IMG/VR virus record: IMGVR_UViG_3300042898_003677
Span: 86,076-150,075 of that record
DNA from: a virus
Length of the DNA: 64,000 nt
Direction: 5' to 3' (one strand)
Shown: positions 43,580-58,169 of the stretch, one piece after another
How the letters are laid out: each line of letters starts with the position of its first letter
How positions within the stretch are numbered: the first letter of the stretch is position 1
The notes under the pieces: model-generated
Told to the model about the DNA's origin: nothing
What the model saw: only the letters and a program-made list of their open reading frames with translations
Databases searched by the model: none
Translations under genes and position numbers: made by a program

Positions 43580-44026
43580 TTATTCATATTTTCTCAACTC
43601 GTTTCGTATCTCAATCGCTGATTCAAAATCTTGTGTTTCGATTGCCGATTTCAATTTAGACTGTAGTTCTTCTACCTTGTCTTTATTCTCTTCAATTGAT
43701 TTAATCATATCACGAAGTTTAATTGCCAATAAGAAATCTTCAGTCTCAACCGCTCTTTCGAGTTCTGCTTTTAGTCTTTCAACTTTATTCTCAGATTGTT
43801 TTGGTTTTCTCAATTTAGATTTAAGACCATCTTTGTCACTTCCAAAGTAGGACTTATAAATTACGGTTGATTTCCAAGTACCATCTGGTGATGTGTAACT
43901 TTCACTGGTCCATTCACCTTCTTCATCTTTACCCGTTTTAAAATCTTTTTTAAAGTCTTTAAAAGGGTCTCCACCGAACATTGATTCAAACATTTCGTTT
44001 AGGTCGTCAAAATTAAATCTTCTCAT
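43580..44026 (-). CDS. UVR-motif protein (McsA-like ClpC adaptor candidate)
   Basis: A 148-residue protein. Residues 1-75 are unique, rich in Phe, Asp and Lys (FDDLNEMFESMFGGDPFKDF). Residues 83-111 and 118-147 are two tandem UVR-type helical hairpins, each with the pattern L-x8-D/E-F-x3-I-x-(L/I)-R (VETEDFLLAIKLRDMIK and IETQDFESAIEIRNELR). UVR motifs mediate protein contacts in UvrB/C, McsA and ClpC. The gene is divergent from a ClpC-like gene that itself carries a UVR motif, with shared operator-like sites between them. An adaptor role is inferred; there are no McsA-type zinc Cys pairs. Confidence 0.7.
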   Translation of the reverse strand: MRRFNFDDLNEMFESMFGGDPFKDFKKDFKTGKDEEGEWTSESYTSPDGTWKSTVIYKSYFGSDKDGLKSKLRKPKQSENKVERLKAELERAVETEDFLLAIKLRDMIKSIEENKDKVEELQSKLKSAIETQDFESAIEIRNELRKYE

Positions 44027-44199: not shown

Positions 44200-46200
44200 A
44201 TGAATGGATTAATGGATGATGACGAAAAACCTCTAAGCCAACGTAAATCTTCTGATTCTTCAACACCTGTGTTGGACAATTTCAGTAGAGACCTTATTAA
44301 GTTAGCTGAAGATGGTAAACTTGACCCTGTTGTTGGTCGTGAACAAGAGATTCTACGAATTGCACAAGTTTTATCACGTAGGAAGAAAAACAACCCAATT
44401 ATCTTGGGGGAACCTGGTTGTGGTAAAACCGCGATTGTCGAAGGATTGGCAATGTTGATTCACAAAGGTGAGTGTCCAAAGAATTTGTTGGATAAACGAA
44501 TTGTTACTTTGGATTTGACATCTGTGGTTGCAGGAACCAAGTATCGTGGTCAGTTTGAAGAACGACTAAAGGTTATCTTGGAAGAACTTCAAAACAACCC
44601 GAATATCATCGTGTTCATTGATGAGATTCATACGTTGATTGGTTCAGGTAACTCATCAGGTTCTCTTGATGGTTCCAACATCTTTAAACCAGCTCTTGCT
44701 CGTGGAGAACTCCAATGTATCGGAGCGACTACTTTGGATGAGTATCGTAAGTCGTTTGAGAAAGATGGGGCGTTGGAACGTCGTTTTCAAAAAATTATGG
44801 TTGACGCATCAACACCTGCAGAAACTGTAATTATCCTTAACAATGTCAAGGATAAGTATGAGTCTTACCATAAGGTAACCTATTCAGATGAGGTAATTGA
44901 ATTGTGTGTAAAGTTGGCTGACCGTTACATCACAGACCGTCAATTCCCTGACAAAGCCTTTGATATTCTGGATGAGGTTGGGGCTCGTGCTCAAACTGAG
45001 GTTAAAATACCTGAAGCAATTGAGGACCTGAAACGTAAAGCGGCTGAAATCAAACAACAAAAACTTGATGTTGTAAAACGTCAAAACTTTGAACAAGCAG
45101 CCGAATTACGTGACAAGGAACGTAAAATCTTGGCAAAACTTGAATCTGAAAAGAAAAAGTTTGAAGAGGAGTCATCAACCAATCGTACCTCGATTACTGT
45201 TGATAATGTTTATGATGTGGTTTCGTCTATGACAAAAATTCCTGTAAACAAAATGACAATCGATGACACTAACGCACTTATCAATATGGATAGTGTTATT
45301 AAGTCTAAGGTAATCGGTCAGGATGAGGCGGTAGAAAAGATTGTTAAATCAATCCGTAGAAACCGAATTGGTATCAAAGACCCTAATCGTCCAATTGGTT
45401 CATTTATTTTCTTGGGTTCTACTGGTGTTGGTAAAACTCACTTGGCTAAACAAATCGCCAAAGAAATGTTTGGTTCAGAAGATTCGATGATTCGTGTGGA
45501 TATGTCCGAGTATCAAGAAAAACACACGGTATCTCGATTGGTCGGAGCACCTCCAGGATACGTTGGTTATGATGAAGGTGGTATGTTGACAGAACAAGTC
45601 AAAAACAAACCATACTCAGTAATCCTATTTGATGAGGTTGAAAAGGCTCACCGAGACATCTTCTCAATCCTACTTCAAATCCTTGATGATGGTCACGTTA
45701 CTGATTCATTGGGTCGTAAGATTAACTTCAAGAATACCTTGATTATTATGACCACAAACTTGGGTGTTAAAAAATTGTCTGATTTTGGTTCAGGTATTGG
45801 TTTCTCATCAAACAAATACTCAAACGAAGAAGCCAAAAAACAGATGTTGATGAAAGAACTCAAAACTTTCTTCTCACCTGAGTTTTTGAACCGTGTAGAT
45901 GACACCATCGTGTTCCAAACTTTATCGAAAGAAAATATCGATAAAATCACCAAACTTGAATTGGATAAATTGGTGACTCGTTTGACTGATATGAATTATC
46001 AAATTACATATAGTCCTTCGTTGATTGAATTTATCTCAAAAGTTGGGTTTGATGAAATATATGGAGCACGTCCTATCAAAAGGGCTATTCAAGATAAGGT
46101 CGAAGATTTTATCTCTGAGATGGTCCTGACAGGTAAAATCAAGGAAGGTAAAAAAATCAATCTTACCGTCCAAGATGAGACAGTAAAAATTGGTAAGTAA
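44200..46200 (+). CDS. clpC: ClpC/ClpA-like AAA+ unfoldase lacking the N domain
   Basis: A 666-residue two-ring AAA+ protein. AAA1 has Walker A GEPGCGKT (70-77), pore loop KYRG (114-117) and Walker B VFIDEIH (138-144). A UVR motif lies at 284-309 ([20 protein letters not shown]). AAA2 has Walker A GSTGVGKT (406-413), pore loop GYVG (453-456) and Walker [12 protein letters not shown] (474-484). GIGF (532-535) matches the ClpP-docking loop, and the long ClpB middle domain is missing, so this is a degradation-type unfoldase. The usual N domain of about 140 residues is replaced by a leader of about 24, so substrate choice must rely on an adaptor. ClpP is not seen and is presumably the host's. Confidence 0.9.
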
Positions 46201-46885: not shown

Positions 46886-47716
46886 TTAGAAAAGTAAAAA
46901 CTGATGTGAGTTTTTATCTACTCTGTTAGTGTGGTGATAATTGTTACCAATTGATTCGATAATTTTTTTACCAATGTTAATACCGTTCTCGACATCTTCA
47001 ATTACAACATATTCATATTTTGAGTGGTAGTCATAATAACCAATTGATAGGTTAATACAAGAGAAATCAAATTTCTTTCTCAAAGCGTATACATCAGTAA
47101 ATGGGTGTCGTTGGTACTTCATATCGTCTGTCATAGACTCTTTCAATACAACATCACAAGACTTGAAGAAATCAGAGTTTCGGTCAAACAATCTTTCACC
47201 AAAACAATATTCTGTAACCATCCAGTTCTCAGGTGCATCAAACTGAATCGCATATCCGACATTTTTGAAGAACTCAGGGTCAGCGTGAGATGAACCAATA
47301 CAACCAATTTCCTCACTAACAAAAAACGCAACTTTCAAGTCAGGTAGTTCTTCCAATAAAGTCAAACAGGCAAAAACACCCGCCTTGTCATCACCACCAA
47401 TACCTGTTGGATTTCCGTGGTCGTCATAAGCTTTCAAGGAAAGTTTCATTTCACCTTGAGCATTTTCTTTCATTTCTTCACGAACATTAATATTTGTCAA
47501 TGAGTGGACCGTGTCCGTATGAGCAACAACACAAGGAAAATATTCAACAACTTCAGAAGTCTGTTTTGTAACATAAACGTTCATATGTTCATCAACCTGA
47601 AAGTTGTAACCTTTGTTGGTTAGGTAGTTTGTGAGGTATTCTACCATAATACCTTCGTGTCTTGATACTGTGGGAACTGATAGAACTTCCTTAAGTAGGT
47701 TTGTGTTGATTGTCAT
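46886..47716 (-). CDS. M20/M28-type zinc aminopeptidase
   Basis: A 276-residue metallopeptidase with the co-catalytic zinc signature of peptidase T-like and related enzymes: HTDTVH (His66, Asp68), GIGGDDKAG (bridging Asp near 109-110) and VSEEIGCIGS (Glu135 base, Glu136 ligand); a later FDAP supplies an Asp. It should trim short peptides in the cytoplasm. It is shorter than most M20 enzymes because the dimerisation domain is reduced. Its closeness to the unfoldase and tmRNA suggests final peptide recycling, which is an inference. It has its own housekeeping-type promoter. Confidence 0.82.
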   Translation of the reverse strand: MTINTNLLKEVLSVPTVSRHEGIMVEYLTNYLTNKGYNFQVDEHMNVYVTKQTSEVVEYFPCVVAHTDTVHSLTNINVREEMKENAQGEMKLSLKAYDDHGNPTGIGGDDKAGVFACLTLLEELPDLKVAFFVSEEIGCIGSSHADPEFFKNVGYAIQFDAPENWMVTEYCFGERLFDRNSDFFKSCDVVLKESMTDDMKYQRHPFTDVYALRKKFDFSCINLSIGYYDYHSKYEYVVIEDVENGINIGKKIIESIGNNYHHTNRVDKNSHQFLLF

Positions 47717-47733
47717 TGTATATTATTTGTATA

Positions 47734-47764
47734 CAAATATACTAAAAACCTAACAGATTTTCAA
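47734..47764 (-). promoter_or_regulatory. Bacteroidota-type promoter of the peptidase gene
   Basis: On the minus strand: TTG (47764-47762), a 20-nt spacer, then TATATTTG (47741-47734), 17 nt before ATG 47716. It lies partly inside the 3' end of the upstream gene. Confidence 0.75.
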
Positions 47765-49109
47765 AGTTAAATAACTTTTTATTGTAAATAAAATCATTAA
47801 ATTTTTCATAGTCCATTGAAAAATTTCTCTGTTGTAATCCTTTTTGGACTTTAAACTCAACTTTTAAAGTTTCAGGGTTGACACTATCAACAACCAATCT
47901 TAAATCAGGGTAATTTGGGAACGGAAGACTATACCCCTGTTTAAACTTACTAAAAATTTCTTTGGATATTCTGGACCATTCTTCAATTTGATAATCTTCC
48001 TCAAACTTCTCAAGTATCTTATCAAGGTTTCGTCCCAAATCAACATTAAAACCGTGACTATCAAAATCTCCTTGGTAGTTCCAATACTCTTCGTACCAAC
48101 CTCCATTTATACCACCAACTTCATTAAAAATCCCTTCCAATAATTGTTTTGGTGTTGCAGATTCCATATTAAGTTGGACTGCCCAAGTATAAAGAACGGC
48201 AACTGTTGCGGTTAATTCGTTATCTCTCGAGTCCCAACTAAAACCATTTTTTGAGAAAACATTGTTTAACTCTTTATAAACACTTTCTCTAACACCATCT
48301 CTTACTTCCTCATTGGCATAATAATTGGCACTATCCATCATATCACCCAAAATACCCGGAACAAGTTTATTGAAGTCTCTATACAGTTTTGCCAAAACTT
48401 CTTCGTTACTAGAGTTATCAATACTGATATCTTCCTCATTCCAATCAGGATGCAACAAAGAAAATATTTTCTTCATTTTTTCTTTGTTTTCATCATTATA
48501 TTGACTTTGATACCAATATCCCTCTGAAAAATTTTCTCGTGTACTCCATTCATCAACAAACTGAAAACCATCATAACCACCATAACTTGATGTAACAGCA
48601 TTAATAATATAAATGTCATCCTCAACCAAGTTAAACATATTTTCATAATCATTCTCGCTTAATTTGAAGACAATTTTTGTTTCACCCTTTCTACTACCTC
48701 TTTCTATTACTTCAGAAACTTTTGGAAATCTATCTAAATAATCAGCATCGACTCTACCATAGATGTATTTTCTTAACGCAATTGGGAAGAATGGACCTGG
48801 TTTTGTAAGAGTCTCAATAAAGTCTTCCAATGTACCATTTGTTGTGAAATTTTTCAAATTAACCTCTGAAGATTTAGAATCAACAATTTTGTAGTCACTC
48901 TCAGTACGAGTTAATAAATAATACTTCCCACTTTCATTGATAACATAAGCACCTCCAAGGGAAAAAGATTTTTCCAAATCTTCTACAGTTTCATCGTTCT
49001 GACACCAATTTGTGTTATCTTGGAAGTTATTACATAGTGCTTCCATATTGTAATATAGAACGATTGTATCGTTAAAAGATTCAAATATTTTCTTGTCAAA
49101 CTTTGGCAT
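47742..49109 (-). CDS. Hypothetical protein with TNWC motif
   Basis: A 455-residue acidic protein of unknown family. Near residue 30-65, DNTNWCQNDETVEDLEK followed by GAYVINESGKYYLLT resembles the T-x-W-C plus Tyr-Ile-Ile segment of the protein at 58245-59285. The rest is helical and aromatic-rich, with no catalytic motif seen. It has a TATTTATT box before the ATG and sits back-to-back with the tmRNA gene. Confidence 0.5.
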   Translation of the reverse strand: MPKFDKKIFESFNDTIVLYYNMEALCNNFQDNTNWCQNDETVEDLEKSFSLGGAYVINESGKYYLLTRTESDYKIVDSKSSEVNLKNFTTNGTLEDFIETLTKPGPFFPIALRKYIYGRVDADYLDRFPKVSEVIERGSRKGETKIVFKLSENDYENMFNLVEDDIYIINAVTSSYGGYDGFQFVDEWSTRENFSEGYWYQSQYNDENKEKMKKIFSLLHPDWNEEDISIDNSSNEEVLAKLYRDFNKLVPGILGDMMDSANYYANEEVRDGVRESVYKELNNVFSKNGFSWDSRDNELTATVAVLYTWAVQLNMESATPKQLLEGIFNEVGGINGGWYEEYWNYQGDFDSHGFNVDLGRNLDKILEKFEEDYQIEEWSRISKEIFSKFKQGYSLPFPNYPDLRLVVDSVNPETLKVEFKVQKGLQQRNFSMDYEKFNDFIYNKKLFNFENLLGF

Positions 49110-49132
49110 ATACTAATAAATACTTATATTTG
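49103..49132 (+). promoter_or_regulatory. Promoter of the tmRNA gene
   Basis: TTG (49103-49105), a 19-nt spacer and TATATTTG (49125-49132) match the Bacteroidota consensus exactly. The mature tmRNA starts 18 nt after the box, leaving a short leader for RNase P removal. Confidence 0.82.
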
Positions 49133-49150
49133 TATTGTTCTTTGAAATAT

Positions 49151-49546
49151 GGGGGTGCCTTGGTATTGATTGGCGTTGCTGGGCATCGGGGGCACGTAGT
49201 GAGAAGTTTCCTATCACTATAATCTACGGAGGCGATTTTTAACTGGCAATACTTTTGCTAAACTTTCTGCTCTCGGTCTTATGAGAGAAGAAAAAGTTGC
49301 TGTAGCCTAAGAGGTATACACAACACGGGGTCGATGGACATTAACCTAGCAACAGAAGTCCTTTAAGGTGTGGTTTCTATCCAAAAAGGAACAAAACGGG
49401 TATGGTTCCCCGTAAGAACTGTCACCGTCGCTGAGCGGTGTGAGAACTCAGATATTTCGGAAGGTATGAAAAACCTTGACCTAAACGTGTAGTCCCTAAT
49501 GGTTAGGGCGAGCAAGACGGGGGTTCGACTCCCCCCACCTCCACCA
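49151..49546 (+). ncRNA. ssrA: tmRNA (ssrA)
   Basis: A 396-nt one-piece tmRNA, the ribosome-rescue RNA acting as tRNA and mRNA. The 5' end GGGGGTG pairs with 3' CACCTCC; pair 3-70 is G-U, the identity mark for alanyl-tRNA synthetase. The T arm GGGGGTTCGACTCCCCC and an encoded ACCA end are intact, and CACGTAGTG near the 5' end matches AAACGTGTAG near the 3' end. The tag frame runs 49245-49310 from GGC to TAA and reads GNTFAKLSALG followed by LMREEKVAVA: 21 residues, longer than the usual 8-15 and ending AVA in place of LAA. It has its own promoter and terminator, so it is probably expressed early. Confidence 0.93.
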
Positions 49547-49551
49547 AGTTA

Positions 49552-49591
49552 GATGTGGGAGTTTTAGTTGACTCCCATATCTCTTTTTTTT
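49552..49591 (+). terminator. Intrinsic terminator of the tmRNA
   Basis: GATGTGGGAGT (49552-49562) pairs with ACTCCCATATC (49571-49581), 11 bp with one G-U, followed by a long T run. It starts 5 nt after the CCA end. Confidence 0.88.
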
Positions 49592-50024: not shown

Positions 50025-50111
50025 GGAGGTTTGGCAGAGCGGTCGAATGCGGCAGTCTTGAAAACTGCTTTACGGGAAACTGTAACCGGGGTTCGAATCC
50101 CTGAGCCTCCG
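50025..50111 (+). tRNA. tRNA-Ser(TGA)
   Basis: An 87-nt class II tRNA with 7-bp acceptor GGAGGTT/AGCCTCC, anticodon loop CTTGAAA (anticodon TGA), a long variable arm and T loop TTCGAAT. CCA is not encoded. Confidence 0.95.
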
Positions 50112-50116
50112 CTAAG

Positions 50117-50150
50117 AAATCTTGGGACATCATCCCAAGATTTTTTTTTT
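50117..50150 (+). terminator. Intrinsic terminator after tRNA-Ser
   Basis: An 11-bp perfect stem AAATCTTGGGA/TCCCAAGATTT with a 5-nt loop and ten following T residues. Confidence 0.9.
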
Positions 50151-50152
50151 GT

Positions 50153-50183
50153 TTGACAAATCCATTTTAAATCTTTAACTTTG
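50153..50183 (+). promoter_or_regulatory. Bacteroidota-type promoter of the probable lysis cassette
   Basis: TTG (50153-50155), a 20-nt spacer and TAACTTTG (50176-50183). The ATG at 50188 follows only 4 nt after the box, so the transcript is expected to start at or near the start codon. Confidence 0.78.
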
Positions 50184-50187
50184 AACT

Positions 50188-50517
50188 ATGGAACTATTAA
50201 AAGAATTTTGGACAAAAGTGAAAAGTGGTCTTAGAATCGTTGTTAACTACTTTTTCATTATCCTGGGTATGGTGGGATGCTTTACCATTGGATACTATTA
50301 CAACGCATTACGTGATTTCAACAAGATTGGTAAACCTAAAATTTATAAGGCAATTGACCACACGTTGGCAATCGACGAAAACAATAATGGCATCATTATT
50401 GAAAATCGTAGAGGTACCTACATTGTATTGGACGCTGAATTGGTGACCAAGTTCTTTGATATCAAAGCACGAAATATGTGGGGACAACACCAAACACCAA
50501 AACCTGTAGAGAAATGA
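50188..50517 (+). CDS. Single-pass membrane protein
   Basis: A 109-residue protein with one membrane helix (NYFFIILGMVGCFTIGYYY, residues 19-38) preceded by a basic cytoplasmic stretch, and a soluble C-terminal part with NNGIIIENRRGTYIVLDAE. It opens a small operon that leads to a transglycosylase, so a role in lysis (spanin or holin partner) is plausible but unproven. It overlaps a 24-codon membrane peptide ORF by 4 nt. Confidence 0.6.
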   Translation: MELLKEFWTKVKSGLRIVVNYFFIILGMVGCFTIGYYYNALRDFNKIGKPKIYKAIDHTLAIDENNNGIIIENRRGTYIVLDAELVTKFFDIKARNMWGQHQTPKPVEK

Positions 50518-50588
50518 TGAGTGTTTGGTATAACCGAATTCTCCACCTGTTAGCAGGTATTGCGGTGGGGTATTTAATCTTTGTTTAA
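50514..50588 (+). CDS. 24-residue membrane peptide
   Basis: A tiny ORF (MMSVWYNRILHLLAGIAVGY then LIFV) that starts in an ATGATG overlap with the upstream stop and ends 10 nt before the transglycosylase start. It would form one membrane helix. The fit between both neighbours supports translation; single-helix lysis peptides of this size are known in other phages, but the function here is a guess. Confidence 0.4.
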   Translation: MMSVWYNRILHLLAGIAVGYLIFV

Positions 50589-50598
50589 AAAAAATGTT

Positions 50599-51162
50599 AT
50601 GACAGTAAAAAGGACCATTACAACAGTTTATCTCCTAATCACCATTATGGTGTTAACAGTAGGATACCAATTAGCCAAGAATAAATTCGTTTATCAACCT
50701 AATGGTATTGAAGAAATGGGGTATGAGTCCACTTTGCCAACGTCATTGTATATGTATAATCTACTTGAGGACAAGTCCGAAGAATACGGTATCCCCAAAC
50801 ATATCTTATACAATGTCGCTTATTTGGAGACACGTTATTGTGGTCCTTTTCACGTCAACTACAACCCACATCAAAGGTCTTATGCCGGAGCAGTGGGACC
50901 GATGCAAATCATTACAAGATACTCGCATTCATATGCGGGTAGACGAGTTAAAGAGACCGAATTAAAAAATAATCTGAAACTTAATATCGACATTTCTTGT
51001 AAGATGCTCAAAAAATTACACGGTATGTATGGGCGATGGGATTTGGCTCTTGGATATTACAATACAGGTTATCCACAAGTTAATGGTTACGCACGATACG
51101 CATCATCCACAATTGATTACAAACAAAAATGGGTGAAACCAAAAACTCAAACAACTCTATGA
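50599..51162 (+). CDS. Lytic transglycosylase (SLT fold) with N-terminal anchor
   Basis: A 187-residue murein hydrolase. An N-terminal hydrophobic helix (TTVYLLITIMVLTVGYQLA) acts as signal or anchor. The SLT domain has PKHILYNVAYLETRYCG with the catalytic Glu, AGAVGPMQI, and GRWDLALGYYNTGYPQVNGYARY, all typical. It cleaves the glycan strand between MurNAc and GlcNAc. The secretion signal suggests an exported endolysin. ATG 50599 is preferred over an in-frame TTG at 50581. Confidence 0.82.
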   Translation: MTVKRTITTVYLLITIMVLTVGYQLAKNKFVYQPNGIEEMGYESTLPTSLYMYNLLEDKSEEYGIPKHILYNVAYLETRYCGPFHVNYNPHQRSYAGAVGPMQIITRYSHSYAGRRVKETELKNNLKLNIDISCKMLKKLHGMYGRWDLALGYYNTGYPQVNGYARYASSTIDYKQKWVKPKTQTTL

Positions 51163-51509
51163 CGAAACTACAAGACGCTATCTTTATATTCTTTGTTTAT
51201 TTAATTTCTCAAATATTCGTATTCTACCAACTCCAAGGTCATCTTTGGAACAAATGGATTAAAGACCACCCATTTCTTATGGCACTCTTTGGACTACCAC
51301 TTGGATATTTGGTTATATTAGGGTCTCGTAAGATGGTTGCACTGTGTGACGGTCAAACTTGGCCAAATCGAATTTTAGGTTTTACTCTTGGAGTAATAGT
51401 ATTTACTATTATGGCTTGGGTTTACCTTAAAGAACCCTTATCATTAAAAACAGGTGTATTACTTTTTTTATGTTTCTTAATAATTTGCATTCAATTGTTT
51501 TGGAAATAA
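51159..51509 (+). CDS. Multi-pass membrane protein (holin candidate)
   Basis: A 116-residue protein with three to four membrane helices (AIFIFFVYLISQIFVFYQ; FLMALFGLPLGYLVILG; ILGFTLGVIVFTIMAW; TGVLLFLCFLIICIQLFW). It starts in an ATGA overlap with the transglycosylase stop, which favours ATG 51159 over an earlier ATG at 51129. Position next to an exported murein hydrolase makes a holin or lysis-control protein the best guess; no holin family is recognised. Confidence 0.6.
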   Translation: MTKLQDAIFIFFVYLISQIFVFYQLQGHLWNKWIKDHPFLMALFGLPLGYLVILGSRKMVALCDGQTWPNRILGFTLGVIVFTIMAWVYLKEPLSLKTGVLLFLCFLIICIQLFWK

Positions 51510-51529
51510 GAAAATCAGTCGTATATTTG
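51500..51529 (+). promoter_or_regulatory. Promoter of the tRNA-Arg transcript
   Basis: TTG (51500-51502), a 19-nt spacer and TATATTTG (51522-51529), 19 nt before the tRNA 5' end; the same architecture as the tmRNA promoter. Confidence 0.78.
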
Positions 51530-51547
51530 TAGAGTTAAAAACAATAT

Positions 51548-51621
<74 letters not shown>

Positions 51622-51625
51622 CAAA

Positions 51626-51817
51626 ATGACAGACTTGTATTTAGATTCAAAAGAAATCCGAAAGAAACGATACCAAGGGGTAAATCCCGAAGGTTTTGTT
51701 CTTGTATCAGAAGAAGCTTTGGATAAGCTACGTGACTTTGAAATATGGAAAAAATGGAAGAATAATGAAATCGATTTAATTGATTTGGAATTCGAAGAAA
51801 ATCATTTGACAGAATAA
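51626..51817 (+). CDS. Small acidic hypothetical protein
   Basis: A 63-residue protein between two tRNA genes, starting 4 nt after tRNA-Arg. It is charged and mostly helical (EALDKLRDFEIWKKWKNNE). The start at 51626 avoids an upstream in-frame ATG that lies inside the tRNA. Function unknown. Confidence 0.55.
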   Translation: MTDLYLDSKEIRKKRYQGVNPEGFVLVSEEALDKLRDFEIWKKWKNNEIDLIDLEFEENHLTE

Positions 51818-51818
51818 T

Positions 51819-51826
51819 TATCTTTG
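51819..51826 (+). promoter_or_regulatory. Possible -7 box before tRNA-Thr
   Basis: TATCTTTG overlaps the stop region of the small gene, 19 nt before tRNA-Thr, as at the tmRNA and tRNA-Arg promoters. No TTG is found at 17-23 nt upstream, so it is a partial match. Confidence 0.4.
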
Positions 51827-51845
51827 TTATATTTCTGTAACACAA

Positions 51846-51919
51846 GCCTCTATAGCTTTAATCGGTAGAGCACCTGACTTGTAATCAGGGGGTTGGCGGT
51901 TCGAGTCCGTCTGGAGGCT
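51846..51919 (+). tRNA. tRNA-Thr(TGT)
   Basis: A 74-nt cloverleaf; acceptor GCCTCTA/TGGAGGC, anticodon loop CTTGTAA (TGT), T loop TTCGAGT. CCA is not encoded. Confidence 0.94.
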
Positions 51920-51935
51920 CAAAAAAAAAATCATT

Positions 51936-52115
51936 ATGACAAACAAGAATCCAAAAACAACTGATAAAAAGGTGAAAACCACTGAAAACGATTTTCGTAT
52001 TGTTGCTGAGGGTAAACTAAAAGGTCGTAAAGATATATCTAAAGATGAAAATAAAGATAATCCGTGGAAATGTGAATGGGATAATGTCCACGGTGATGTA
52101 ATTCACTTTAGATAA
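51936..52115 (+). CDS. Small basic hypothetical protein
   Basis: A 59-residue ORF between tRNA-Thr and tRNA-Gly, 16 nt after one and 4 nt before the other. The N-terminus is Lys/Thr-rich, and a short motif NPWKCEWDNVHGDVIHF closes the protein. The tight fit supports a gene; function unknown. Confidence 0.5.
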   Translation: MTNKNPKTTDKKVKTTENDFRIVAEGKLKGRKDISKDENKDNPWKCEWDNVHGDVIHFR

Positions 52116-52119
52116 AAAA

Positions 52120-52195
52120 GCGGGAGTAGCTCAGTTGGTAGAGCTTCAGCCTTCCAAGCTGAAAGTCGCGAGTTCGAGTCTCGTCTCCCGCTCCA
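52120..52195 (+). tRNA. tRNA-Gly(TCC)
   Basis: A 76-nt tRNA including an encoded CCA; acceptor GCGGGAG/CTCCCGC, anticodon loop CTTCCAA (TCC), T loop TTCGAGT. Confidence 0.95.
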
Positions 52196-52196
52196 T

Positions 52197-52296
52197 AAGG
52201 GAATCCGGCTTTATGGTGAAGGACACGCTGGCGGATGACATTCAGAGATTGTCTTTAAAGAACTCGAAACCATAAGTCTTGTGATGGAGGTCCCTT
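52197..52296 (+). ncRNA. Unassigned structured RNA between two tRNA-Gly genes
   Basis: A 100-nt segment with three nested helices. The closing stem is AAGGGA (52197-52202) with TCCCTT (52291-52296). The second is GGC-TTATGGT (52208-52217, one bulged T) with ACCATAA-GTC (52269-52278). The third is AAGGACA (52219-52225) with TGTCTTT (52250-52256). It is followed by CCACCA. No cloverleaf, T loop or ORF is present. It recalls the stable non-tRNA species encoded in the T4 tRNA cluster, but its identity is unknown. Confidence 0.5.
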
Positions 52297-52307
52297 CCAC
52301 CACACAA

Positions 52308-52380
52308 GCGAGAGTAGCTCAGTTGGTAGAGCACAACCTTGCCAAGGTTGGGGTCGCGAGTTCGAATCTCGTCTCTCGCT
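52308..52380 (+). tRNA. tRNA-Gly(GCC)
   Basis: A 73-nt tRNA; acceptor GCGAGAG/CTCTCGC, anticodon loop TTGCCAA (GCC), T loop TTCGAAT. It is similar in sequence to the tRNA-Gly(TCC) 190 bp upstream, which suggests duplication of one gene. Confidence 0.95.
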
Positions 52381-52424
52381 CAATCTGAATTAAAACACAG
52401 AGTAAACCAAATTTAAAAACCAAA

Positions 52425-52595
52425 ATGAAAAAAGTAGTATTTTTATTGTTTTCTTTAGTTCTTTTGGCTTCTTGTGGTAACGAGGCGACTCCTGCCGTTG
52501 AACCATCTTCAGTTGACACAACTGAAGTTGTTGTTGACAGCACTGTAGTTGATTCAACAGTTACTCCTGAAGTTGAAGTTGCACCTGCTAAGTAA
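52425..52595 (+). CDS. Small lipoprotein
   Basis: A 56-residue protein with a lipoprotein signal (MKKVVFLLFSLVLLASCGNE; lipobox LASC, Cys17). The mature part is 40 residues of Val/Thr/Ser/Pro/Asp and probably extended. Phage lipoproteins can block superinfection or alter the envelope. It ends the tRNA block and is followed by a terminator. Confidence 0.72.
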   Translation: MKKVVFLLFSLVLLASCGNEATPAVEPSSVDTTEVVVDSTVVDSTVTPEVEVAPAK

Positions 52596-52616
52596 TTACA
52601 GAGGTAACACGGACTT

Positions 52617-52642
52617 AAAAGGGACCTCGTGTCCCTTTTTTT
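52617..52642 (+). terminator. Intrinsic terminator after the lipoprotein gene
   Basis: GGGAC/GTCCC (52621-52635) with a 5-nt loop, extended by an A run before and a T run after. Confidence 0.75.
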
Positions 52643-52653
52643 ATGCTTTAAAC

Positions 52654-52661
52654 TATTTATA
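52654..52661 (+). promoter_or_regulatory. TATTTATA box (candidate late promoter)
   Basis: Exact octamer ending 5 nt before ATG 52667, implying a leaderless or nearly leaderless transcript. Confidence 0.6.
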
Positions 52662-52666
52662 ACAAT

Positions 52667-53989
52667 ATGAAACGAGTTTTAAGAGAAGAAATAAATTCAA
52701 TGAAATCATTAATGAAAATTAATGAAGACTTTGTTACTGTTTCTTCAGTTGGATTTGATAACATCACAACAGATAATGATTCAACAAAGTCTGATAAAAT
52801 AAATCGTGCGCTTCTTAAAGATATTAGTAGAGCAGCTAAAAAGGCTGGTGTAAAAGTAACTATCACAACTGCTAATTCAGGTCACAATATGAGAACTAAA
52901 TCCGGCACCTTAAGTAGACATAATACTAATCAAGCCGTCGATATTGCGATGATTGATGGTGTTGGTTCAGGTGGAGCGACTAATGCAACTAATGGTAACC
53001 CTAAATTTAAATCAGGTGGAGATAAATTAGTCGCCGCTCTTGAAAGTATGGGTTATACGAGAAATGCTGAAGGACCCCAAAACCCAAAGGCAGTTTTTTG
53101 GCAAACTAATTCAGGTGGTAATCATTTTAATCACGTACACGTTTCAAACACAACTGGCGAATCATCTAAAGAAAGTGACGATAATTTTGAAATTACACCT
53201 GAAAGAGAGGAAGAATTGAAAAAAATTGCACAGGGTGTTTCCAATCAGGAGAAAAAAACTGGTGATTTTGAAGCAATATTTAAAATGGCTGACACACTTA
53301 AATCTACTCTTAATAGAGCATCGGTAAATGCAGGTATAAAAGAGCAGTTTGATGATAGTGAAAGAGTTTCTGGTGTAGGTTTGGTTAAATCTAAACATCA
53401 GGGAAAAATAGTTCCTAACACACTTATAAAGAAAAACTGTGATGATTCATTAGTAATCAGGTTTAGGATGAATAATAGTACATACTATGTAGAATACTGT
53501 AATTTAGAAAAAACTTATAAATCTACAGGTGAAAATGTATACGTTGGCGATAAATTAGGTGAATCCTCAGATACTGTTTATTTAAGTTATTTTAACTATA
53601 AAGGTGACAAAATTAATAAAGACATTATTAGCTCACCTAAAACTGAGCCTGAAGAAATAGACGATGAAAAACCTACAGATTCTGTAAAATCAAAAGGATT
53701 AAAAATATTTCAAGATGATTCTGGAAGTACAGGTGAAACGTTTGCAGACTCTTTTTATAACCTATTTCAAAATTTAAACCCTTTAACCAGTAGATACGCT
53801 ATAGACTCAGAAACAGGCAAACCTGTTAAAGTACATCAGGGTGGTCTTGCAACAACACGTAGTAAAGATTCTAAACCAAAAATGGATTATTTAAAAAGAA
53901 TAGGATACGCATCAACTAAATCAGGTGCAAAAACCAGAGGTAAAAGTCTTAAAGAAGAAATGGAAATAATGAAAAAATTAATGAAATAA
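52667..53989 (+). CDS. M15-like murein peptidase with helix tags at both ends
   Basis: A 440-residue protein. The N-terminus MKRVLREEINSMKSLMKINE and the C-terminus KSLKEEMEIMKKLMK are near-mirror amphipathic helices. Residues 45-160 form a zinc peptidase domain of the M15/VanY type: SRHNTNQAVD (His85, Asp92) and NHFNHVHVS (His156 and His158). It should cut peptide cross-links of murein. The remaining part (170-420) is of unknown fold. The TATTTATA box and tags suggest a virion-associated lysin, perhaps for entry. Confidence 0.75.
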   Translation: MKRVLREEINSMKSLMKINEDFVTVSSVGFDNITTDNDSTKSDKINRALLKDISRAAKKAGVKVTITTANSGHNMRTKSGTLSRHNTNQAVDIAMIDGVGSGGATNATNGNPKFKSGGDKLVAALESMGYTRNAEGPQNPKAVFWQTNSGGNHFNHVHVSNTTGESSKESDDNFEITPEREEELKKIAQGVSNQEKKTGDFEAIFKMADTLKSTLNRASVNAGIKEQFDDSERVSGVGLVKSKHQGKIVPNTLIKKNCDDSLVIRFRMNNSTYYVEYCNLEKTYKSTGENVYVGDKLGESSDTVYLSYFNYKGDKINKDIISSPKTEPEEIDDEKPTDSVKSKGLKIFQDDSGSTGETFADSFYNLFQNLNPLTSRYAIDSETGKPVKVHQGGLATTRSKDSKPKMDYLKRIGYASTKSGAKTRGKSLKEEMEIMKKLMK

Positions 53990-54017
53990 AAAAAAGGGAC
54001 TTAGGTCCCTTTTTTTA
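53988..54017. terminator. Bidirectional intrinsic terminator
   Basis: GGGAC/GTCCC (53996-54009) with a TTAG loop between an A run and a T run; it separates the peptidase gene from the minus-strand tRNA-Ser. Confidence 0.8.
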
Positions 54018-54019
54018 TG

Positions 54020-54107
54020 CGGTGGGTGAGGGGCTCGAACCCTCGCGCCGGTTACCCGACCTATCAGTTTAGCAAACTGACCCCTTCACCAACTTGGGTA
54101 ACCCACC
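54020..54107 (-). tRNA. tRNA-Ser(GCT)
   Basis: An 88-nt class II tRNA on the minus strand; acceptor GGTGGGT/ACCCACC, anticodon loop TTGCTAA (GCT), long variable arm, T loop TTCGAGC. Confidence 0.95.
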
Positions 54108-54112
54108 AAAGA

Positions 54113-54757
54113 TTACTCTTCATCATCATAAACACCTGACTCCAAATCGTCAAGAGTAAATAGATGAATTTCTAATGATTTACCAGTAAACCATTCATCC
54201 TCAAAGTCTTTTTCAAGTTCTTGGTTCTTGTAAAACATTTTATCCATAACCTCATAATCAAAAATTGGTGATTCTAAACTCTGAGCAGTAAAGCCAAAGT
54301 CTTCAAATTTAGGTACCTCATCAGACTCAATATGATAATTACAAATTGTCCCTTTAACATCCTCAATCAAACAAAGAATGTTTTCGTGACCTTCGTGAGG
54401 GTATGCGTCGATAACCTGACCAACTTCTTCTAAATTTGGTATTTCACCATATTTGTCTTGTAAATCGTATATGTCTGTGAGTTCTTCCCACCCTTTTTCC
54501 CATATAACATTTCCATTTTCGTCAATCAAAACAAACATAAGTCTATCGTTAACATATGGTCGAGATGCCACCCACCAGTTAGTATCATAGTGGTCATAAT
54601 TCTCAATTAAGTCAGGTATCATTGAATACATCTCACTGAGTTCTTCGTGATTACCTTCTTCTTTAGCATTAAGAATAATTTCAACTTCTTCAGAAGTTAG
54701 GTTATGGGCAGATGCCTCCATACCAAAACCATTAACCAATAATTTATATTTAGCCAT
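54113..54757 (-). CDS. Hypothetical acidic protein
   Basis: A 214-residue, very acidic protein (many Asp, Glu, Tyr) without known motifs. Its first part, KYKLLVNGFGMEASAHNLTSEE, is a beta-helix start, and GNVIWEKGWEELTDIYDL is a second recognisable segment. It is co-oriented with the small ORFs upstream and reads into tRNA-Ser(GCT). Function unknown. Confidence 0.55.
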   Translation of the reverse strand: MAKYKLLVNGFGMEASAHNLTSEEVEIILNAKEEGNHEELSEMYSMIPDLIENYDHYDTNWWVASRPYVNDRLMFVLIDENGNVIWEKGWEELTDIYDLQDKYGEIPNLEEVGQVIDAYPHEGHENILCLIEDVKGTICNYHIESDEVPKFEDFGFTAQSLESPIFDYEVMDKMFYKNQELEKDFEDEWFTGKSLEIHLFTLDDLESGVYDDEE

Positions 54758-54758
54758 T

Positions 54759-54923
54759 TTATTTAAAATTAGAATTGTTTAACCAAATTGTATCACCCTT
54801 TTTATATTCACCTTTAGAGTATACAACGCCTTTTAAACCCTCATCTGTTTTACACATATATGAGTTATATTCTTTTCCCACAGAAACCAATGAGATAACA
54901 ATCAAAAACGCAATTGTTTTCAT
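54759..54923 (-). CDS. Small secreted or membrane-anchored protein
   Basis: A 54-residue ORF with an N-terminal hydrophobic helix (MKTIAFLIVISLVSVGKEY) and a short polar tail ending GDTIWLNNSNFK. Its ATG overlaps the stop of the upstream ORF (54920-54923) and it ends 1 nt before the next gene, so it is an operon member. A small envelope protein is likely. Confidence 0.5.
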   Translation of the reverse strand: MKTIAFLIVISLVSVGKEYNSYMCKTDEGLKGVVYSKGEYKKGDTIWLNNSNFK

Positions 54924-55072
54924 TCTTCTTCCTCCTTATCATTTTGATTTGTTGGTAATGCTCCGACAAATAAAGACATTAAAATCCACCAAGGACTTTG
55001 TGTTAAATAAACAACATATCCGACAAGTGCGAGATATGCCAAGGCAACTAAAGTGTAAGAAACGTATTTCAT
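54920..55072 (-). CDS. Small membrane protein
   Basis: A 50-residue ORF with one or two membrane helices (LVALAYLALVGYVVYLTQ, then WWILMSLFVGALP) and a Glu/Asp tail. It starts right at the end of the HAD gene (overlap at 55072) and overlaps the next small ORF by 4 nt. Function unknown. Confidence 0.5.
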   Translation of the reverse strand: MKYVSYTLVALAYLALVGYVVYLTQSPWWILMSLFVGALPTNQNDKEEEE

Positions 55073-55665
55073 TATTGTAAGAATTTTAAAACTTTCTCTT
55101 TTACTCCTGATTGTTTAATACCCTCGTATTGTTGTGGTGTATGTACGAAATTAGTTAAACCAGGTTTTTCGTCAAGACCATCTTTATGTGTAAAATGATT
55201 TGATAAAAAATCTACAGACATATCCAAATCATCAATTGACACCCAATGAGTAATTTCAGGATGAGTTTCTAAATAATGTTGGATTTCAATTGAACGTTCC
55301 AATTCTAAATCGGCACGGAATCGTAGTATGTTCCATTTTTCAGGTGCGATATCTTCAGTTCTTGGTGTTGTTGCAATTGGAGCTTTTAGGATACCTTGAG
55401 ATAGGTAGTATTCACCAAGTTCCTCCAACGTGGCGTGAAATCTCCAATCTGAAGATACAACTATTTCAGCACCAGTCTCTTCTAAAATAGAATTTAGGAC
55501 TTTAATTGCTTTATCATCAAAATCGTCAAATCGATATTGAATAGGAATTTCTCTATTGGTCATAGACATTTTTCTACCACCCCATTTTTTTTGTTTCTTC
55601 ATCCTACCACCCCAATTGTTTGCAAGACAAATTACACCATCGTTATCTAGGAATATTACTTTCAT
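55072..55665 (-). CDS. HAD phosphatase-like protein, RNA-repair (SAK) type
   Basis: A 197-residue protein starting MKVIFLDNDGVICL, a HAD motif I (Asp7, Asp9). It has ETGAEIVVSSDWRFHATLEE as motif II and ITHWVSIDDLDMSVD as the acidic motif. This set matches the HAD group associated with Swiss-Army-Knife RNA repair proteins (family assignment from memory). It may remove terminal phosphates from RNA or nucleotides. A longer reading frame exists upstream, but a minus-strand TATCTTTG box (55670-55677) ends 4 nt before ATG 55665, supporting this start. Confidence 0.68.
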   Translation of the reverse strand: MKVIFLDNDGVICLANNWGGRMKKQKKWGGRKMSMTNREIPIQYRFDDFDDKAIKVLNSILEETGAEIVVSSDWRFHATLEELGEYYLSQGILKAPIATTPRTEDIAPEKWNILRFRADLELERSIEIQHYLETHPEITHWVSIDDLDMSVDFLSNHFTHKDGLDEKPGLTNFVHTPQQYEGIKQSGVKEKVLKFLQ

Positions 55666-55669
55666 AGAA

Positions 55670-55677
55670 CAAAGATA
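55670..55677 (-). promoter_or_regulatory. -7 box TATCTTTG on the minus strand
   Basis: It matches TAnnTTTG and lies 4 nt upstream of ATG 55665. No TTG is found at the ideal distance. It supports the short start of the HAD gene and a leaderless mRNA. Confidence 0.4.
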
Positions 55678-55697
55678 ATACAATCTTGTAGTAATTC

Positions 55698-56933
55698 CTA
55701 TTTTTTCTTGTAAATAATTTCTTTGTGGATTTTGAATGGTCCGTATTTTTTCTCCATCAATAAACGGTGAAGTTCCCAATTGATAATGGATTCGTTTGTT
55801 TGTCCATCATCTTTCGCCATATCATAAAGTTTGGCAATTTTTCTAATCATTTTATCGGCAATCATATTAAACTTTTTGATTTCGTATTTAAAAAATTTGA
55901 TTGGGTTGTTTTCAAATCTAAGAACAAATTTTTGAAAGTTTTCTTTGATTTTATCAAGTTCCTCAGAATCCCCTAAAGATTGTCCAAGCATTGATGCTAA
56001 CATAGATAATAGAGGGTCTGAACCCATTGGTCCATCTACGTATCTGTTAAACTTTTCAAGTTTTCTATTTGATAAGTTTATAAAGAATAAACGTAAAACT
56101 TTTTCAACTTTTTCATCATCAGTCATTGTGGTAGGGTCCTCTTCCATAATTTCAGATATAAAAAAATCAACTCTTTCCATATTATCTTTAATCCCTGAGA
56201 CTAAATCTTCATACGTGAAATTTTTAATTTCCTGTAATTTTTGGAATGTCTTATCCTTTTTCAAAAAGTCTAAAAACTGTGATTTTGTAATATTTTTCGT
56301 TCTTATGTTAGATGCGACTTCACTAGGTCTAACCAAATTTTCAGCAACGGTAGTAAAATATAAAAAGTGTATAAATTTTTCGTCAAGTACATCAATCCTA
56401 AATGGTGGCATATCACCGATAGCATTATATTCAGCATCGTGCCCAATTAAACCCTTTCGACTAACTTGTTTATCGTATTTGTGTTTTAATTCGTGAGCAA
56501 TTGACCCGATATATTCATCTCTATCAGATTCAAACTCTTGGGCTAATTGTTGCGGTTCCCATTCAGAGTTTACAATATAAGTTAAAGTAAATGTTGCTTT
56601 TGATGATGGTTTAATAGTTTTTAACTTAATGTCTCTATCAAATCTAAAAGTTTGTGACATACCCATAGAGGCGATTTTCGGGTCCTCTTTGAATTCATCA
56701 ATCTCGTTAACCTCAACGATGAGTTTATAACTATCAAGATATATTTTTTGTTTATAACCTAATGTTATATCAATGTCACCATAAAATTCGTATTCATCTT
56801 TTTTTTGACGAATACTTTTTAAGTCGTTTAAAATCATTCCATAAACTTCTTCGGCGGCTTCCAAAATAGATTCAGGAACCCCTAAAGCTTCATTAATTAA
56901 GTTGTACTGACTTTCGGTGATAATATACTTCAT
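55698..56933 (-). CDS. HELKH zincin-like protein with N-terminal helix tag
   Basis: A 411-residue protein. The N-terminus MKYIITESQYNLINEALG is of the tag-like type seen on other proteins of this phage. Residues 147-151 are HELKH in YIGSIAHELKHKYD, the zinc-binding HExxH motif of metallopeptidases, with an AEYNAIGD segment downstream that could supply the third ligand. The C-terminal 200 residues are helical. It may be a protease carried in the virion or acting on host proteins. A TATTTAAT box lies just upstream. Confidence 0.62.
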   Translation of the reverse strand: MKYIITESQYNLINEALGVPESILEAAEEVYGMILNDLKSIRQKKDEYEFYGDIDITLGYKQKIYLDSYKLIVEVNEIDEFKEDPKIASMGMSQTFRFDRDIKLKTIKPSSKATFTLTYIVNSEWEPQQLAQEFESDRDEYIGSIAHELKHKYDKQVSRKGLIGHDAEYNAIGDMPPFRIDVLDEKFIHFLYFTTVAENLVRPSEVASNIRTKNITKSQFLDFLKKDKTFQKLQEIKNFTYEDLVSGIKDNMERVDFFISEIMEEDPTTMTDDEKVEKVLRLFFINLSNRKLEKFNRYVDGPMGSDPLLSMLASMLGQSLGDSEELDKIKENFQKFVLRFENNPIKFFKYEIKKFNMIADKMIRKIAKLYDMAKDDGQTNESIINWELHRLLMEKKYGPFKIHKEIIYKKK

Positions 56934-56947
56934 ACTATTAAATAGTA

Positions 56948-57112
56948 TTATTGGTCTCTTTCATCTAATATTTGAAGGTACAATGATTCTGTCATAAGAT
57001 GGCCACTTTGTTTGCCTACTAAATCACAAAAAAGACCTTTTTGTAAAATAGAATAGTCCTTGGGGTCAATAATCACCCAAGGACCTTCGTTTCTAATGTC
57101 GTTACGTTTCAT
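56948..57112 (-). CDS. Small hypothetical protein
   Basis: A 54-residue ORF (GPWVIIDPKDYSILQKGLFC in the middle) whose start overlaps the stop of the ORF upstream at 57112. It is soluble and of unknown function. Confidence 0.45.
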   Translation of the reverse strand: MKRNDIRNEGPWVIIDPKDYSILQKGLFCDLVGKQSGHLMTESLYLQILDERDQ

Positions 57113-57249
57113 TATGGTTGTGTTAATACCAAAAATACGGCAACAATTCCAATCACCAATAGTCCCAAAAAAGCCATTGCTAGACTAAATTCAACTTGGT
57201 CTTTTGTTTTACCTTGCCAATCTTCAGGGTTCCATTCTTCTTTTTTCAT
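57112..57249 (-). CDS. Small membrane protein
   Basis: A 45-residue ORF with a polar start (MKKEEWNPEDWQGKTKD) and one membrane helix (LAMAFLGLLVIGIVAVFLVL). It overlaps the cREC gene by 4 nt at its start and the next ORF at its end. Unknown function. Confidence 0.5.
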   Translation of the reverse strand: MKKEEWNPEDWQGKTKDQVEFSLAMAFLGLLVIGIVAVFLVLTQP

Positions 57250-57680
57250 ACTGTATGTTCCCATTGAACTCTCACACAATTTTGTGGGAGACGGTTTAGA
57301 TGTCTATAATTATTAATGTACCCCATCATATTTGCCGAACCAACAGCATTTGCCGAGTGAACAACCACATCAACAACAGGTTTTCCGTCCAACCATTGGT
57401 TAACCAACCACTTTGTACAATCCATACCAGTTTTTTCAGTGATATTGTCGTAATTGATTGCGTAGTTTTTTGTTACACCATATAACCACTCACTCATTGC
57501 ACTATCACCTAAATCGTGGTCCAAAGAAATAAGTTCGATGTTTTCTAAACCAATTTTGTTAATTGTTTGGACAAACTCATCATAAGAACGAACAACAGTC
57601 CATTCAGGGATTCCATTAACCCACTCATTATTCGGACTCACAGGAGTTCTAACATCATCAAGATAGATACGGTGTTTCAT
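57246..57680 (-). CDS. Cyclic-phosphate processing receiver (cREC) domain protein
   Basis: A 144-residue protein with the cREC pattern: RIYLDDVRTPVSPNNEWV (Asp8, Asp9), TVVRSYDEFVQTI, and ELISLDHDLGDS (Asp54, His55, Asp56), then KTGMDCTKWLVNQWL. Related domains are predicted to process 2',3'-cyclic or terminal phosphates in RNA repair and conflict systems (assignment from memory). The gene lies directly downstream of a tRNA array on the same strand and 1.6 kb from the HAD gene of the same theme, which supports RNA-end processing. Not a two-component regulator. Confidence 0.72.
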   Translation of the reverse strand: MKHRIYLDDVRTPVSPNNEWVNGIPEWTVVRSYDEFVQTINKIGLENIELISLDHDLGDSAMSEWLYGVTKNYAINYDNITEKTGMDCTKWLVNQWLDGKPVVDVVVHSANAVGSANMMGYINNYRHLNRLPQNCVRVQWEHTV

Positions 57681-57704
57681 ATTTGTAGTTTTTAATAATC
57701 ACAT

Positions 57705-57771
57705 CGTACAGGCATTCTACTCCCAGCTCCGAGGAATTGTATCTAACTTAGCCCTTCTCCACCGCTGTACG
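57705..57771 (-). ncRNA. Unassigned structured RNA near tRNA-Glu
   Basis: A 67-nt segment closed by CGTACAG/CTGTACG (7 bp, perfect). It contains an inner CTC/GAG hairpin but no T-loop sequence or anticodon arm. It lies between the cREC gene and tRNA-Glu on the tRNA transcript. It may be a small stable RNA or a processing signal. Confidence 0.42.
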
Positions 57772-57792
57772 GGTACCTGAAGATATGATTTG

Positions 57793-57864
57793 TAGCCCGA
57801 CGGGGAATCGAACCCCGCTCTCGTCCGTGAAAGGGACGTGTCCTGACCGATAGACGACCGGGCC
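57793..57864 (-). tRNA. tRNA-Glu(TTC)
   Basis: A 72-nt cloverleaf on the minus strand; acceptor GGCCCGG/TCGGGCT with two G-U pairs, anticodon loop CTTTCAC (TTC), T loop TTCGATT. Confidence 0.95.
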
Positions 57865-57880
57865 AAATTAAGATAAGTTG

Positions 57881-57954
57881 TGGACCGTGGGAGACTCGAA
57901 CTCCCGACCCCCTGCGTGCAAGGCAGGTGCTCTAGCCAACTGAGCTAACAGCCC
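57881..57954 (-). tRNA. tRNA-Ala(TGC)
   Basis: A 74-nt cloverleaf; acceptor GGGCTGT/ACGGTCC with the G3-U70 pair that marks alanine tRNAs, anticodon loop CTTGCAC (TGC), T loop TTCGAGT. Confidence 0.95.
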
Positions 57955-57962
57955 GAAAAGAG

Positions 57963-58011
57963 AACCCGGGCCCAGCGTGCCAATCTTTCAGGAAGGGCCC
58001 TTTTCAAGGTT
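57963..58011 (-). ncRNA. Unassigned structured RNA between tRNA-Ala and tRNA-Met
   Basis: Forty-nine nt with AACC (RNA 5' end, 58011-58008) pairing with GGTT (57966-57963), and GGGCCC (58000-57995) pairing with GGGCCC (57973-57968). The inner loop is 21 nt. A 7-nt side loop lies on the 5' strand and one base on the 3' strand. It is the only strongly G+C-rich non-tRNA segment nearby. Confidence 0.42.
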
Positions 58012-58017
58012 CTTTGT

Positions 58018-58090
58018 TGCGGGGGTGGGATTCGAACCCACGTGATTCAGCTTATGAGACTGAGCTGGAACCTTCTCCAGTCCACCCCGC
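58018..58090 (-). tRNA. tRNA with CAT anticodon (Met or Ile2)
   Basis: A 73-nt cloverleaf; acceptor GCGGGGT/CCCCCGC with a mismatch at pair 7, anticodon loop CTCATAA (CAT), D arm CTGG/CCAG, T loop TTCGAAT. It lacks the three G-C pairs of initiator tRNA. It could be elongator Met or a lysidine-modified Ile(CAU); sequence alone does not decide. Confidence 0.9.
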
Positions 58091-58097
58091 TATGTTG

Positions 58098-58169
58098 CGG
58101 TCCCACGGGGAATCGAACCCCGAACTCAGCCGTGACAGGGCTGCATTATAGCCGTTTAACTATGAGACC
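58098..58169 (-). tRNA. tRNA-Asp(GTC)
   Basis: A 72-nt cloverleaf; acceptor GGTCTCA/TGGGACC, anticodon loop CTGTCAC (GTC), T loop TTCGATT. It is the first gene of the minus-strand tRNA array. Confidence 0.95.

Follow-up and report, generated by a model that had tools for sequence, protein, structure and literature searches.

A window of 64,000 nt (the whole stretch of DNA analysed, itself a portion of a 150,075-base virus record) carries a tmRNA gene that belongs to a widespread family of phage tmRNAs whose long tag is under selection. Judged by comparison with its relatives, this phage tmRNA is real and looks functional, and the family is a variant of the phage tmRNAs already known (PMC4131195), which were found in 402 of 18,146 phages in a 2021 set (PMC9004378). 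The gene is nearly always located near a phage unfoldase, which suggests a virus-specific destruction route for tagged proteins. Phage tmRNAs have usually been reported singly and their tags left uncompared; in the present case, peptide-level selection maintains a single long tag across a large clade of uncultivated phages, beside the clade's own unfoldase. This raises the testable question of whether phages divert the products of ribosome rescue to a protease of their own, and points to a possible source of an orthogonal degron-protease pair.

The original prediction of a complete tmRNA with its own promoter and terminator, a G3-U70 pair and an encoded CCA was confirmed. The match to RF00023 is complete and in one piece (89 bits versus a cut-off of 47, E 3e-33, model positions 1-374), and ARAGORN placed the ends of the RNA identically. 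The gene and its flanking signals are as follows.

49102..49132, plus strand: putative Bacteroidota-type promoter, with TTTG at 49102-49105, a spacing of 19 nt and TATATTTG at 49125-49132 (consensus match)
49137..49147, plus strand: leader GTTCTTTGAAA, boxA-like, immediately 5' of the mature tmRNA end (conserved; putative function)
49151..49546, plus strand: one-piece tmRNA (ssrA) with encoded CCA (RF00023, ARAGORN)
49151..49157, plus strand: 5' strand of the acceptor stem, pairing with 49536-49542 and containing the G3-U70 alanine identity pair (compensatory changes in relatives)
49241, plus strand: A at -4 relative to the resume codon, the counterpart of E. coli A86 (kept in relatives)
49245..49310, plus strand: tag frame GNTFAKLSALGLMREEKVAVA followed by TAA, with the core G.[TV][FLI].K[LM]...GL (ARAGORN, relatives, codon evolution)
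49519..49535, plus strand: T stem-loop GGGGG-TTCGACT-CCCCC (RF00023 match)
49551..49582, plus strand: intrinsic terminator, a predicted hairpin followed by a T run

The acceptor stem GGGGGUG/CACCUCC contains the pairs G1-C72, G2-C71 and G3-U70. The last of these was found in 42 of 42 distinct relatives, and compensatory changes were observed at acceptor pairs 4-7. The RNA thus has the tRNA-like domain with T arm and alanyl identity that defines a tmRNA. The promoter arrangement (TTTG, 19 nt, TATATTTG-type) also lies upstream of the tmRNA in 36 of the 42 relatives. A leader of the GTTCTTTGAAA / GTTCTTTAACA type occurs in 36/42 as well and resembles the boxA antitermination elements of rRNA. The folding energy of the whole tmRNA was uninformative (z -1.3). 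We rejected the idea that the gene is a prophage attachment remnant of a host tmRNA, as it is complete, internal to the genome and equipped with its own promoter. A search of 84,980 bacterial and archaeal genomes gave two exact matches to a tag pattern of the GNTFAK type, and neither is an ARAGORN tmRNA.

The tag frame runs from GGC at 49245 to TAA at 49308-49310 and encodes the 21 residues GNTFAKLSALGLMREEKVAVA. Two independent routes were used to find relatives, via the ClpC-like protein encoded 3 kb upstream and via the codons of the tag. The protein search yielded 80 viral contigs, with a tmRNA above the cut-off in 52 and just below it in one. In all 53 tmRNAs extracted in this way the tag has 21 or 22 residues, belongs to one family and is read in a GG(C/A) frame at the same place, and further tmRNAs located via Clp but missed by Rfam (L016, L026, L030 and L368) have a 21-22-residue tag of this family as well. 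When all viral contigs were searched with two degenerate tag-codon patterns, the tag was present in 232 of the 239 stretches among the matches listed. More than 230 viral contigs, a minimum given by the matches listed, therefore carry a homologous tag in the same RNA context. Between near-identical tags, differences at codon positions 3, 1 and 2 numbered 480, 243 and 94, and 56% of the changed codons in near-identical pairs were synonymous in the tag frame, compared with 27% and 6% in the other two frames. Recurrence in more than 230 contigs together with codon evolution favouring the same frame excludes chance, and these codon patterns indicate that the tag is under purifying selection at the peptide level.

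A different frame would make the true tag short, for instance AILLLNFLLSVL read from GCA, or one of the short tags called by ARAGORN such as AEEATVVA. The stop codon of the GCA frame does sit in a predicted hairpin loop, and ARAGORN starts the tag later in several relatives. However, the adenine at -4, the base that sets the tmRNA reading frame in E. coli (A86; PMC2481249), is invariant for the GGC frame only and was present in 270 of 270 relatives among the matches listed. In the relatives, the other frames range from 3 to about 50 residues and show few synonymous changes. The GCA frame was rejected because neither its length nor its sequence is conserved, and what ARAGORN calls as short tags are the C-terminal portions of these 21-mers. 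The -4 adenine, the codon-position pattern, the synonymous excess and the erratic alternative frames all favour the 21-mer over a short tag, and we consider a wrong frame extremely improbable. The outcome that had been named in advance as fatal to the long tag, another resume codon with a short tag, was thus examined, and the comparative evidence favours the frame from 49245 to 49310.

Late ARAGORN starts were seen in many relatives (L019, L024, L061, L267 and others), giving AEEATVVA or, far too late, EKEQTVSFRVLP. Together with the tmRNAs missed by Rfam, this means that published lists of phage tags may contain wrong tags.

The sample found via Clp rather than via the tag pattern contains 24 distinct tags. 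All of these have G1, K6, G11 and L12, with hydrophobic residues at positions 4, 7 and 10; V predominates at position 18, and 22 of the tags have A at position 21. In the wider sample, position 6 is rarely N or T and position 1 rarely D. Five relatives were missed by the regular expression for the tag motif (GNVINKLSVAGLIRTEEVAVA, GDVIENLQAVGLVRTEEVYAA, GNLLNKMETLGLLRGSEVTVA, GETFATLEALGLIQAEEVTVA and DNTLSKMATLGLTREAVVVAA), so that G1 and K6 are nearly but not fully invariant. The C-terminal ends in the clade (VAVA, VTVA, VVAA, VYAA, VVTI, VTVS and VVGA) consist mostly of hydrophobic residues followed by A. Because the end varies, the family is recognised by the N-terminal half of the tag (core G.[TV][FLI].K[LM]...GL) and not by AVA. 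The ending AVA, originally singled out as a special feature, has lost that status, since VVAA, VTVA, VVTI and VTVS are all tolerated within the clade, and ends of the LVA type are known from variants of the E. coli tag. The unusual length attributed to the tag holds in that it has 21 residues while the commonest tmRNA tag length is 10 (PMC11915505), but long tags have a precedent in Mycoplasma. Reading the tag as an amphipathic helix was rejected, its hydrophobic moment being no higher than that of shuffled sequences. A tblastn search for the exact tag in INPHARED phages, for which a 21-aa query is weak, returned no match.

A phage ClpC-like unfoldase had been proposed to lie about 3 kb from the tmRNA, and was located 2.95 kb away. 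It is accompanied by three further genes of interest.

43580..44026, minus strand: small McsA-like protein with tandem UVR, encoded divergently from Clp; adaptor candidate (PF02151, 6e-15)
44200..46200, plus strand: ClpC-like double-AAA unfoldase without Clp N-domain, with UVR-type middle domain and an IGF ClpP-docking loop at residue 533 (domain and structure comparison)
46886..47716, minus strand: PepT-like peptidase (M20/M42), located between the Clp and tmRNA genes (53/53 loci)
47742..49109, minus strand: fast-evolving 455-aa protein, divergent from the tmRNA (homologue in 52/53 loci)

Both AAA modules of the unfoldase have intact Walker and pore motifs. The ClpP-docking loop is of the [IVL]G[FL] type, and G[IV]GF was found in 80 of 80 Clp relatives. 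The best solved relative is ClpC (PDB 6em8). Like the ClpC of Firmicutes (6em8, 3j3s), the phage protein has both AAA modules, a UVR-type middle domain and the ClpP loop at the same position, but it differs in being without the N-domain: it starts at the equivalent of ClpC residue ~153, and no Pfam match to Clp_N, the N-terminal domain looked for, was found. The N-domain of ClpC is the binding site of adaptors and phospho-arginine. No match to a ClpP or SmpB gene was found within the phage record, and host partners would therefore be required. Of the 53 loci, 24 have a homologue of the tandem-UVR protein beside Clp. The 455-aa protein lies between the peptidase and the tmRNA; it was modelled well by AF2 (pLDDT 84.7), yet the model had no match in the PDB, and it was set aside as an adaptor candidate.

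Within the clade, the tmRNA sits 1-7 kb downstream of the unfoldase gene. Clp was present on the same strand, at a median of 2.8 kb, in all 73 tag loci, among the matches listed, whose upstream sequence spans 6.5 kb or more, and conversely the tag was present in 45 of 45 Clp loci having at least 7 kb downstream. In a second, wider Clp sample that partly overlaps the first, the tag was present in 42 of 50 loci; the Clps of the remaining eight all have ≤63% identity to that of the window. More distant phages have Clp without tmRNA, and tag type tracks Clp similarity in only 44 of 54 cases. As the terminase (TerL), the portal and other genes of the block extending from terminase to tmRNA are also conserved, linkage of Clp and tmRNA is to be expected from synteny and is weak evidence of function; we dismissed it as proof. 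Clp without tmRNA in distant phages, together with a long tag without Clp in Cellulophaga phages, shows that the pair is usual in the clade and not obligate.

Considering what is known of tmRNA biology, host AlaRS would charge the phage tmRNA and host SmpB would bring it to ribosomes that, during infection, have stalled on mRNA that is cut or damaged. Such a ribosome would then switch to the phage tag, the stalled chain would be released with GNTFAKLSALGLMREEKVAVA at its end, and the ribosome would be recycled. Less certain is the fate of the tagged chain. The tag may be a bipartite degron, with the conserved N-terminal half for docking and the short hydrophobic V-x-A end for the pore, following the logic of the E. 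coli tag with its adaptor-binding part and C-terminal unfoldase-binding part (PMC8138137). Its main reader would most likely be the N-domain-less ClpC ATPase of the phage, docked on host ClpP and perhaps assisted by the UVR protein, and amino acids from the degraded chains would be returned to the phage. We judge this reading, a functional tmRNA with a bipartite degron handled mainly by phage ClpC, to have an even chance of being correct. The stricter form, a phage-private tagging-proteolysis module in which the N-terminal half of the 21-22-residue degron is read only by the phage ClpC on host ClpP, we put forward tentatively. If true, stalled chains in the infected cell would pass from the quality control of the host to a protease under phage control. 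Given the syntenic block, the Clps without tmRNA and the Cellulophaga tag without Clp, such a private route is plausible only.

The main rival is plain degradation by the host: the tmRNA would act normally, host ClpXP or another host protease would degrade tagged chains via V-x-A, and the phage ClpC would serve otherwise, possibly as an assembly chaperone, as a disaggregase or in the degradation of other targets. The tag ends speak against reading by phage ClpC in that they are near forms accepted by E. coli ClpXP; clade tags mostly end in hydrophobic residues and A, and LVA, AAV and similar E. coli tag variants are used as ClpXP degrons (PMC9382460). The occurrence of Clp without tmRNA and of a long tag without Clp, and the conservation of the block that Clp shares with terminase and portal, fit this explanation too. 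Yet it leaves unexplained why the N-terminal half is the most conserved part of the tag, as well as the endings VVTI and VTVS, and we regard it as rather unlikely. Still less probable, in our view, is that ribosome recycling is the main benefit and that the conserved half binds an adaptor or host factor or marks chains non-proteolytically. Many phenotypes of tmRNA loss are due to failed trans-translation and not to failed degradation of its products (reviewed in PMC3985003), the conserved half is distinct from the C-terminus, and the UVR protein beside Clp is a candidate adaptor. Against this, the V-x-A pattern is typical of degrons, and no adaptor is present at all loci save the peptidase and the 455-aa protein (52/53).

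The host is probably a member of the Bacteroidota, as indicated by the promoter type, the GGN resume codon and the terminase match. The best match of the terminase to a named, cultured phage was Flavobacterium phage immuto, at only 27%. A GGN resume codon is typical of Bacteroidota, whose own tags are short and of the type GE(N/T)NYALAA. With cellular tmRNA (RF00023) the phage RNA shares the G3-U70 tRNA-like domain, T arm, -4 A, stop-ended tag frame and terminator; it differs in being phage-borne and in its tag of 21-22 residues with a conserved N-terminal half.

A functional parallel is the extended tag of Mycoplasma and Mesoplasma, for which Lon is the protease (Gur and Sauer 2008; Ge and Karzai 2009, as relayed in PMC3985003 and PMC9382460). 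According to these accounts, that tag is likewise long, has a non-LAA end and is thought to be suited to a different AAA protease, but it is cellular, ends in AFA and reflects a switch to Lon after ClpXP loss, whereas a phage-borne ClpC-like ATPase is concerned here. The Cellulophaga phages Calle and phi38:1 (Pervagoviridae) resemble the family in their GGA resume codon, -4 A and long tag GNNTNAVNAQIEANMEAVNAILNLEVAVGV (30 residues when read from GGA; ARAGORN starts later) and differ in being podophages. No match to Clp was found in either phage, and the similarity of their tag to the window's family is weak, eight of 300 shuffles scoring equally well, and at most suggestive. In phi38:1 (NC_021796; L338:26803-27164) the tmRNA is absent from the record's annotation, and its tag is the same as in Calle. 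Other phage-borne tmRNAs, for example those of mycobacteriophages such as Bxz1, Bacillus phage G (AKLNITNNELQVA) and methylophage Melnitz, have unrelated tags, and in the literature searched no ClpC link is reported for them. The Melnitz tmRNA is in two pieces and under a glutamine riboswitch (PMC9004378), in contrast to the one-piece tmRNA of the window. Neither the tag family nor a tmRNA-ClpC phage module is described in the literature searched, a scope that leaves out most subscription journals.

In a subset of relatives, a nearly invariant structured leader of ~80 nt (AAATCACGGGTGGCTCCC...GGGGGCGAAAGTGATTT) lies between the promoter and the tmRNA, directly upstream of the tmRNA leader (L039:15425-15505, L070:15000-15080 and about 34 others); it does not occur in the window. 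A 7-bp stem closes this structure, which also contains an inner hairpin whose sequence varies while pairing is kept, and no match in Rfam was found. By analogy with the riboswitch-controlled Melnitz tmRNA (PMC9004378), this leader may be a riboswitch. The 484-kb uncultured phage LR756508.1 encodes a full tmRNA (L330:1501-1947), in which the frame after the -4 A would give a 36-residue tag, GVNNADYESAGFTAEDFAQMDGESLYHGSERKPAAV. It also encodes a 112-nt tmRNA-like RNA consisting of the tRNA-like part only (L333:1501-1612, 58 bits), like that of mycobacteriophage DS6A. Downstream of the tmRNA, the window carries ten tRNA genes (50025-58169), and a Ser-Arg-Thr-Gly order recurs in several relatives.
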